A DNA stretch of 64,000 bases from Spirochaetota bacterium (lineage in GTDB: Bacteria > Spirochaetota > Spirochaetia > Treponematales > UBA12059): contig JAKLDN010000002.1 in the NCBI GenBank assembly GCA_022703505.1, positions 248,001 to 312,000 of the forward strand. Reading direction: 5' to 3'. How positions within the stretch are numbered: position 1 is the stretch's first letter; every line of letters begins with the position of its first letter. The position numbers were made by a program, and so were the translations under genes. Below the pieces are notes generated by a model, which saw only the letters and a program-made list of their open reading frames with translations, was not told where the DNA came from and made no database searches. This document shows, in pieces, positions 41,474 through 48,775 of the stretch.

Positions 41474-42145
41474 ATGAAACAGTGGACCCGGGCCGAGCTG
41501 GCCAAGGCGATCGATCACAGCCTCCTCAAGGCGTTCAGCACGGAGAGGATGGCGGAGGAGCATTGCGCCGAGGCTCGTGCGTTCGGGTTCTACGGAGTCT
41601 GCGTGAATCCCTACTGGGTGCGCTTCTGCCTTCGGAAGCTCGCGGGCAGCGGGATCGCGGTCTGCACCGTAGTCGGCTTCCCCCTGGGGGCGAACGCCCC
41701 GGAATCCAAGGCGGAGGAAGCCCGGCTCGCCGTCCGGTCGGGGGCCGGGGAGATCGACATGGTCATCAACGTCGGCGCCGCCAAGTCCGGGGACTGGAAG
41801 GCCGTGGAGGAGGACATCCGGGGGGTCGTGGCCGCGTCCGGCCCCGCGGCGGTGAAGGTCATCCTGGAAACCTGCTACCTGAACGGGTCCGAGAAGGCCC
41901 GCGCCTGCGAGGCGGCGATCCGGGCGGGCGCCCGCTATGTCCAGACGAGCACGGGCTTCGGGACCGGGGGCGCGAGCGTGGACGACATCCGGATCCTACG
42001 GGACGCGATCAGGGACCGGGATCTCCGCATCAAGGCCTCCGGCGGCATCCGGACCTACCACGACGCCGTTCAGCTCCTGGAGGCCGGCGCGGACCGGATA
42101 GGCGCAAGTTCCGGCGTCGCCATAGTCTCGGAACTCCCCGAATAG
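41474..42145 (+). CDS. DeoC-like aldolase with Gln in place of the Schiff-base lysine
   Basis: A 223-residue TIM barrel of the deoxyribose-phosphate aldolase family. Asp95 (EIDMVINVG) and Lys187 (IKASGGIRT) of the catalytic set are kept, but the Schiff-base lysine motif VKTSTGF reads VQTSTGF (Gln157, codon CAG at 41942-41944). It is therefore probably inactive as an aldolase or uses altered chemistry. ATG 41474 with GAGGGG upstream is chosen over an in-frame ATG at 41459. It follows the HD gene by 11 bp. No encapsulation peptide is present, unlike the BMC DeoC. Confidence 0.82.
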   Translation: MKQWTRAELAKAIDHSLLKAFSTERMAEEHCAEARAFGFYGVCVNPYWVRFCLRKLAGSGIAVCTVVGFPLGANAPESKAEEARLAVRSGAGEIDMVINVGAAKSGDWKAVEEDIRGVVAASGPAAVKVILETCYLNGSEKARACEAAIRAGARYVQTSTGFGTGGASVDDIRILRDAIRDRDLRIKASGGIRTYHDAVQLLEAGADRIGASSGVAIVSELPE

Positions 42146-42172
42146 CATGCCCGTATCCGGTCCGCACCGTTC

Positions 42173-42228
42173 GTGAAGATCGACGAAGCGCGAAGCGCTT
42201 CGTGGCCGCGGGGCGCGCCGCGCCCCGC
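42173..42228. repeat. REP-like 'gacgaagcgcgaagcgcttcg' unit, copy 1
   Basis: GACGAAGCGC hairpin followed by GGCCGC and a perfect CGGGGCGCG/CGCGCCCCG GC palindrome. The first 36 nt match copy 2 at 42351 with three changes. Confidence 0.65.
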
Positions 42229-42230
42229 GC

Positions 42231-42281
42231 CGGATCGGAGCAAGTTCCGGCGTCGCGATCGTATCGGAGTTGCCGGAGTAG
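42231..42281 (+). pseudogene. Remnant of a second deoC gene (last 16 codons plus stop)
   Basis: The frame encodes RIGASSGVAIVSELPE and TAG, the same 16 residues that end the intact deoC-like gene 85 bp upstream. The DNA differs at about ten mostly third-codon positions. The near-purely synonymous divergence means this was once selected coding sequence, not a recent copy. The body of the gene is missing and a REP-like unit lies directly against its left edge. Confidence 0.7.
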
Positions 42282-42350
42282 TCCTGCGGAAAATCGCCGA
42301 AGCCTTGGCTTCGGCGCCGCCGGGCCCGCGGCCCGGCGCCCCGTCGGTAC

Positions 42351-42408
42351 GTGAAATTCGACGAAGCGCGAAGCGCTTCGTGGCCGCCGGGCCGAGGGCC
42401 CGGCGCAA
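42351..42408. repeat. REP-like 'gacgaagcgcgaagcgcttcg' unit, copy 2
   Basis: Same order as copy 1: GTGAAATTCGACGAAGCGC, hairpin, GTGGCCG, then CGCCGGGCC-gag-GGCCCGGCG. Confidence 0.65.
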
Positions 42409-42414
42409 TTGCAG

Positions 42415-42455
42415 AGCAGGTTGTAGAAATGCTAGAAGCATTTCTACAACCTGCT
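42415..42455. repeat. Perfect 19-bp palindrome overlapping the DeoR-family stop codon
   Basis: AGCAGGTTGTAGAAATGCT, loop AGA, then the exact complement. The stop TAG of the leftward regulator gene (42454-42456) overlaps its right edge. Related to the element at 19968-20008. Confidence 0.75.
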
Positions 42456-47374: not shown

Positions 47375-47862
47375 GCGCCGAGGAAGGGTCCGCGCCCGCG
47401 GACGTCGTGCGGAACGTGGCCATCGGCGCGGACCACGGGGCCGTCGAGCAGAAGGCCCTCCTGGTCCGCTACCTCGAGGTCCTGGGGTACCGGGTGACCG
47501 ACGTGGGGACCTTCGGGACCGAGAAGGTGGACTACCCGGACATCGCCCTGGCGGTGTGCCGGAAGGTGAAAAGCGGGGCCTGCGAGCGCGGGATCGTCCT
47601 GGACGGGGCGGGCATCGGGTCCTGCATGGCGGCGAACAAGGTTCGGGGCATACGCGCCGCGATGTGCTACGACCTCCGGACCGTGGTGAACAGCCGGGAG
47701 CACAACAACGCGAACGTGCTTACCCTGGGCGGCCCCTTGCACACGCCGGACCGCCTGGCGGAGATGGTGAAGGTTTGGCTGGAGACCCGGTTCGCCGGGG
47801 GCCGGCATATCGTCAGGATCAACAAGATCATGGCCCTGGAGCGCGGAGGCTTCGAAGGATGA
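47371..47862 (+). CDS. rpiB: RpiB-like sugar-phosphate isomerase, BMC-associated
   Basis: A 163-residue RpiB/LacAB-family protein: [14 protein letters not shown], the phosphate-binding [20 protein letters not shown], and [15 protein letters not shown]. In E. coli RpiB the base is Cys66 in ICGTGIG; here that position is Asp78 (LDGAGIG), so the substrate or mechanism may differ. RpiB homologues mark SPU-type BMC loci. No clear encapsulation helix at the N-terminus. Overlaps neighbours by ATGA on both sides. Confidence 0.88.
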
Positions 47863-48641
47863 CGGACGAGGAAAAGGTAATCGAGAGGATCGTGCAGGAG
47901 GTCCTGGCGAGGATGGGGACCCGGACGGCCGAGGTTCCGAACGACGAGGGGCCCGCCCGGCCCCGGATGGAACCGGCCGAGCTGGCGCCCTTCATCGACC
48001 ACACCCTTCTCAAGCCCGAGGCCACGGAAGACCAGATCGACGTTCTGTGCGACGAGGCGGCCAAGCACCGCTTCGCCTCCGTCTGCGTGAACTCGACCTG
48101 GGTGGAGCGCTGCGCCCGCCGCCTGGGCGGGACGGGGGTCAAGGTCTGCACGGTCGTGGGCTTCCCCCTGGGGGCCATGGACAGCCGTTCGAAGGCCTTC
48201 GAAGCCCGCACCGCCGTCTCGAACGGGGCGTCCGAGGTCGACATGGTCATGAACATCGGGGCCCTGAAGGCCGGGGATCTCAGGGCCGTGCGGGAGGACA
48301 TGCTGGCGGTCCGCCGGGCCTGCCGCGTCGGCATCGTCCTCAAGGTCATCATCGAGGCCTGCCTCCTCACGGACGCCGAGAAGGTCCTGGCCTGCCAGGT
48401 CGCCAAGGACGTGGGCGCGGATTTCGTGAAGACCTCGACGGGATTCTCCAAGTCCGGCGCCACGGTCGCGGACGTCGCGCTGATGCGCCGGACCGTGGGA
48501 CCCTCCGTGGGGGTCAAGGCCGCCGGCGGGATCCGCAGCTTCGACGACGCCCTGGCCATGCTGGACGCCGGCGCGAACCGTCTGGGCACCAGCCAGGGCG
48601 TCACCCTGGTGAGCGGCCAGACCCCGGGAGGCGGCTACTGA
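47859..48641 (+). CDS. deoC: Deoxyribose-phosphate aldolase DeoC with encapsulation peptide
   Basis: A 260-residue aldolase with the full catalytic set: Asp128 (EVDMVMNIG), Schiff-base Lys191 (VKTSTGF) and Lys220 (VKAAGGIRS). It cleaves 2-deoxyribose-5-phosphate to glyceraldehyde-3-phosphate and acetaldehyde. Residues 2-20 ([19 protein letters not shown]) form an amphipathic helix followed by a flexible linker to about 38, as in BMC encapsulation peptides. Ordinary DeoC starts near what is residue 42 here. Last gene of the BMC operon. Confidence 0.93.
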
Positions 48642-48696: not shown

Positions 48697-48717
48697 AGTG
48701 CCGGCTTAGGGAAACTC

Positions 48718-48775
48718 GACGAAGCGCTTCGCGCTTCGTTGCCGTAGGACCGCGCGCAGCGTGGTCCTACGCTAG
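48718..48775. repeat. REP-like unit between the BMC operon and the nucleoside transporter
   Basis: GACGAAGCGC/GCGCTTCGTTGCCG followed by CGTAGGACC...GGTCCTACG. The end of the leftward permease gene (stop at 48772) overlaps its right arm. Confidence 0.65.

Follow-up and report, generated by a model that had tools for sequence, protein, structure and literature searches.

The closest known logic for the arrays described here is, by analogy, that of prophage e14 at icd (icdA/icdC) in Escherichia coli. There, a housekeeping gene receives a new 3' end from an insert and its old end is left stranded; of the 12 SNPs that distinguish the two ends, 10 are synonymous, and the old end is regained by recombination at 11-bp direct repeats (PMC4759930). 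The second point of reference is the group of REP, BIME and REPIN sequences with RAYT, which are short, multicopy extragenic palindromes that are frequently clustered, frequently lie right behind stop codons and have stems that vary while pairing is kept (PMC2817692, PMC3116915, PMC3733652). Finally, small inverted triplications and template-switch duplications have been described in cancer and yeast genomes, and their elimination has been tested on an E. coli plasmid (PMC13334657).

The arrays that we describe share features with each of these. As at e14/icd, the genes deoC and rny have a replacement end and a stranded native end that differ mainly at synonymous sites, but the inserts are about 60-130 nt of hairpins without an integrase or att core (no gene lies in inserts of about 70-140 nt), and the tails (5-18 codons, up to three per array) are found at many genes. 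The repeated units resemble REP and BIME sequences in all the traits named above, being short palindromic repeats, in many copies and mainly extragenic. In contrast to these, they consist of two hairpins, are not next to a Y1 transposase gene and form clusters that include copies of the last codons of the upstream gene. REP palindromes have a GTAG or CGTC tag at one end; the unpaired ends of the unit read TCG and GCC. The direct-inverted-direct order (X-T-X'...T) seen at rny, ychF, ackA, proS and deoC is that of small inverted triplications, whereas the copies here are tied to the REP-like unit and to gene ends. We class them as REP-like two-hairpin arrays containing exchangeable gene tails, because the units resemble REPs but show no association with RAYT. 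The literature searched, whose coverage was partial, held no description of gene-tail arrays or of tail duplication at REP units. Our preferred reading, which we consider likely, is that each locus is a tandem array whose cell comprises the last codons of the gene, its stop, a short spacer and a two-hairpin unit, and whose copies cycle through the coding position.

The array behind deoC

The window, i.e., the whole stretch of 64,000 nt that was analysed, corresponds to positions 248001-312000 of contig C7 in a genome of 3.66 Mb and 14 contigs (G000). The stop codon of its deoC-like gene is followed by a 34-nt spacer, a two-hairpin unit, a copy of the gene's tail and two further units (Table 1). 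Both 51-nt tails, the coding one (type A) and the stranded one (type B), encode RIGASSGVAIVSELPE and a stop, and they differ by 10 nt in 9 codons, all synonymously. This agrees with the original prediction, which had described an identical peptide with about ten mostly synonymous differences and a REP-like unit at the break; unit 1 indeed lies directly before the copy. None of 20000 neutral simulations with 10 changes was free of non-synonymous codons, and the synonymous-only changes support the view that the stranded tail diverged while it was coding. In a census of the 564 genes of the 630-kb contig, the tail copy of deoC scored 27, against a maximum below 18 in controls that paired genes with mismatched downstream DNA, and its post-stop inverted repeat X' ranked second.

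Table 1. Features of the deoC locus, in positions of the window, and gene-end hairpins at other loci.
Feature	Position	Strand	Details
deoC-like gene (DeoC/LacD aldolase family)	41474..42145	+	ORF, gene call, Pfam PF01791 (E=3e-12)
Coding tail type A, last 16 codons + stop	42095..42145	+	Equals non-coding copies 2 and 3 in G001
Post-stop inverted repeat X' of gene DNA 42085-42106	42148..42169	+	86% over 22 nt; fold
Two-hairpin REP-like unit 1	42180..42229	+	Hairpin 1 42180-42203, hairpin 2 42207-42229
Stranded tail copy, type B	42231..42281	+	Serves as coding tail in G001
Two-hairpin REP-like unit 2	42294..42338	+	Hairpin 1 42294-42314, hairpin 2 42318-42338
Two-hairpin REP-like unit 3, without tail copy	42358..42405	+	Hairpin 1 42358-42381, hairpin 2 42385-42405; direct repeat of unit 1
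Perfect 19-bp inverted repeat between convergent deoC and deoR-type genes	42415..42455	.	
REP-like unit downstream of second deoC (47862-48641), without tail copy	48716..48771	+	
Gene-end hairpins, 13-20 bp	L102 (G000 C3:33.9k), L035 (C9:70.2k), L056 (C7:76.8k), C7:615.2k, L130		

The original prediction had also pointed to a Lys-to-Gln change in this gene, and the change is there. The deoC-like genes of G000 and of the sister species G001 have Gln in the motif YVQTSTGF, where G002 and 77 of the 78 motifs scored among the loci of a wider scan have Lys (VKTSTGF); two other family members, G007 and G012, have Met. We take this lysine to be the Schiff-base position of deoxyribose-phosphate aldolase. 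Purifying selection still acts on the Gln-bearing gene (45 synonymous versus 23 non-synonymous codon differences). The second deoC of the window keeps the lysine and adjoins BMC-type shell genes. Separately, the post-stop inverted repeat after deoC, GTATCCGGTCSGCACC, recurs almost unchanged in G008 (L010), which belongs to another genus and whose protein has only 69% identity.

Sister species differ in which tail is coding and which is stranded

G001 is the closest relative among the genomes compared, and its deoC has 90% protein identity to that of the window. It ends in a type-B tail, followed, as tail B is in the window, by the unit 2 variant and then by two type-A tails, each behind a unit. 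Over 30 nt, the tails differ by 1 nt between A and A, by 2 between B and B, and by 7-9 between A and B. Together with the order of the G001 array, these distances show that coding and stranded status are swapped between the two species. The body of the gene is 12% different between G000 and G001, and 11 of its last 15 codons differ synonymously, the highest value among 55 orthologous gene pairs; among unit-bearing genes generally, such a rise in tail divergence is clear only at deoC and absent at most others. Behind deoC, both unit and copy are absent from G002 and from most other members of the family, and the tail copy of G015, whose contig ends inside it, is kept as tentative. The difference between A and B may stem from exchange between lineages or from old switching within one.

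The gene rny allows a comparison of loci with and without the insert. In G001 and G002, its tail is followed by an insert whose first part is the gene end in inverted orientation together with a hairpin; downstream of the insert come GAGTACGCGCGATGA, in which the old tail (EYAR-TGA) is stranded, and the native downstream DNA. In G000 there is no insert, and the gene ends in GAATACGCGCGATGA, followed by the same downstream DNA as in G001 and G002. Because G000 and G001 are the closer pair by their rny and proS distances (a third gene tested does not resolve), the sequences point to a probable precise loss of a cell in G000, by which the stranded tail became coding. Independent gain in G001 and G002, or transfer between them, is a possible alternative.

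The order at rny in G001 and G002, with native tail and downstream DNA after the insert, is exactly what one would expect of a tail-carrying miniature mobile element, whose unit inserts with its own recoded tail and strands the native one, as prophages do at icd. The deoC array of G001, where tail B and a unit precede the native-like tail A and its X' repeat, also fits. However, tail A with its X' is proximal in the window, the arrays of oppF in G002, galE and arcC are plain tandem duplications, and the unit has no associated transposase or integrase: Y1_Tnp genes are present, but none is flanked by it. We therefore regard this explanation as unlikely, if worth keeping in mind, and give slightly less credit still to the idea that unit and gene tail form a miniature element moving between strains into the same gene ends and bringing a synonymously recoded C-terminus that lets the host gene survive. 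If true, this would be a transposase-free, gene-specific system of spare tails at many housekeeping genes.

Recurrence, coding history and origin of the tail arrays

The census, which covered contig C7 and was complemented by targeted stretches, identified tail copies at ackA, an ABC-2 permease, deoC, proS, galE and oppF (short), and almost none in mismatched controls. The targeted stretches added ychF (G000), oppF (G002), rny (G001, G002), eno (G010, G015) and a small gene of G001 (L159); gene names other than deoC were read from the translated sequence without a family search. In G008, from an independent genus, a fresh tandem duplication of a 36-nt tail, spacer and unit lies behind the carbamate kinase gene (arcC). 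The same anatomy is thus found at deoC and nine other genes (proS, galE, oppF, ackA, the ABC permease, ychF, rny, eno and carbamate kinase), in this genus and two more. The copies lie directly 3' of hairpin 2 in nearly all cases, and the array of the ABC permease has tail copies without the two-hairpin unit. On C7, a tail copy follows 5 of the 14 genes that carry a forward unit, versus 1 of the 550 without (Fisher p=2.5e-8), and a contig of G016 without units has tail copies at 0 of its 229 genes.

This recurrence bears on the explanation initially given for the second deoC tail, a formerly expressed tandem paralogue or xenologue deleted except for its last 17 codons, with the REP unit at the break. 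Part of it stands, as synonymous-only divergence needs a coding history, and two deoC genes lie near each other in G008, G010 and G017. The lost second gene itself finds no counterpart: the relatives compared have no same-direction second deoC at this locus, nor a tandem deoC giving such a tail, and G001 has one coding and two stranded tails, an array of tails instead of the remnant of a gene. Moreover, nine unrelated genes with tail-only copies would have required as many losses with the same endpoint. Since these copies are nearly all directly 3' of the same unit, only the tails seem to have been duplicated, and we consider a lost paralogue very improbable. Nor do the relatives show what the original prediction had named as its own refutation, a tail conserved within a non-coding element unlinked to deoC: each copy belongs to the gene just upstream. 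A deoC pseudogene remnant was also rejected, homology starting about 16 codons before the stop and tandem deoC genes being absent from relatives.

Tails A and B look like alleles, which raises the question of whether the metagenome assembly strung together, around a repeated hairpin, the ends that one gene has in different strains. One such case exists: the tail copy of deoC in G051 (L028) was discarded as a plain scaffolding artefact, the duplicated tail flanking an N gap on both sides. The window genome, on the contrary, has few contigs and no N at the locus; the same junctions of unit and tail are found in separate assemblies (G000, G001, G002, G008, G010 and G015), and orthologous arrays are conserved between species (rny in G001/G002, eno in G010/G015). 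We regard such an artefact as very improbable.

Pooled over all comparisons of gene tail and copy, there are 58 synonymous and 13 non-synonymous codon changes, where neutral changes would be 77% non-synonymous on average and at least 63% (3000 simulations); the pooled codons are not independent, one gene being compared in two rows of G001. Among copies detected purely through DNA similarity, the changes are 13 synonymous versus 4 non-synonymous, so the use of peptide searches is not the whole reason for the excess. At eno, gene and copy in G015 share the species-specific EYPGMKAFYNVKK, and gene and first copy in G010 share EYAG(R/K)KAFYNVHK, in both cases with differences at synonymous sites. 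Some copies are decaying (the third copies of ychF and proS, and a G001 permease copy with a nonsense change), so not every tail has cycled. 

The conserved peptides could also be accounted for if the stranded tails were themselves expressed and selected, as small ORFs through the hairpins or as an alternative end. At every copy with a unit, the reading frame of the tail extends without a stop for at least 54 nt upstream, across the hairpins, and all three eno copies have an in-frame start. Yet GC-rich hairpins are rarely interrupted by stops anyway, the copies of deoC, ackA, oppF and L159 have no start codon, and the spacing to the gene stop is in most cases not a multiple of three; we find this explanation quite improbable. 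Readthrough into the copy, or its in-frame use, was rejected on this spacing and on the missing start codon at deoC.

Under our preferred reading of cycling tandem cells, a cell would be a tandem duplication, produced when slippage or template switching of replication at the hairpins copies the gene end a second time. Deletion or recombination between the direct tail repeats would then remove a cell cleanly, and the downstream tail would take over the coding role, so that the gene is not broken. Most tails would have been coding for the greater part of their history, here or in a related lineage exchanging DNA, and would look like coding sequence because of this; the reshuffling would leave species coding with different members of the array. 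The arrays of oppF (G002), galE (G000) and arcC (G008) are recent, plain tandem duplications of tail, spacer and unit. In the post-stop spacers of deoC, ackA, proS, ychF and rny, stretches of nearby gene DNA are found again in inverted orientation, which is what template switching at hairpins would produce. The spacers after gene stop and copy stop are similar at some loci only. Exchange between lineages is probable; like the duplication and the switching of tails, it is deduced from one MAG per species.

The arrays show that a bacterial housekeeping gene can take its coding end from a small set of spare ends lying downstream, and that REP-type repeats are linked to this. The units seem to copy gene ends, which would offer a handle on the origin of REP units. 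Tail copies also call for caution, as they can distort gene phylogenies and dN/dS values close to stop codons and lead to errors in annotating pseudogenes.

The two-hairpin unit

The unit is about 60 nt long and reads TCG-[NNGAA... hairpin]-NGCC-[GC-rich hairpin of varying sequence]. Our unit finder identified 27 units in 630 kb, all with hairpin 2, and 0 in the reversed sequence; in a stricter list of 21 units, 20 are intergenic and 1 is in coding sequence. In the genome, an exact 5' pattern is present 47 times (palindromes being counted on both strands). It is also common in G001, in G002 and in the genus to which G010, G015 and G017 belong, and rare or absent elsewhere.

Mobilisation by RAYT was rejected: none of the five PF01797 (Y1_Tnp) genes of G000 and four of G001 is flanked by a unit within about 1.5 kb on each side, where the contig allows. 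A known structured RNA was discarded as well, as the array matches no Rfam family near the gathering score. Neither sigma-70-type promoters nor T-tailed terminators were found within the array. The unit probably acts as an RNA 3'-end or terminator-like structure, or is a selfish REP-type element.

Near gene ends, the hairpin next to a reverse-oriented unit may consist of the gene's last codons, including the stop, and their inverted copy, as at a fabG-like gene (C7:76.8k), at C7:615.2k, at L035 and on C3. The hairpins of this kind listed in Table 1 are perfect, their 5' arm being the end of the upstream gene. Two other intergenic arrays of tandem hairpins, L051 and L046 (G000 C1:224k and C9:19k), have a period of about 60-85 nt. 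The gene after proS (C7:26271-27378) begins within the array, with a REP-like unit in its predicted N-terminus, and its start reads as a lipoprotein signal.
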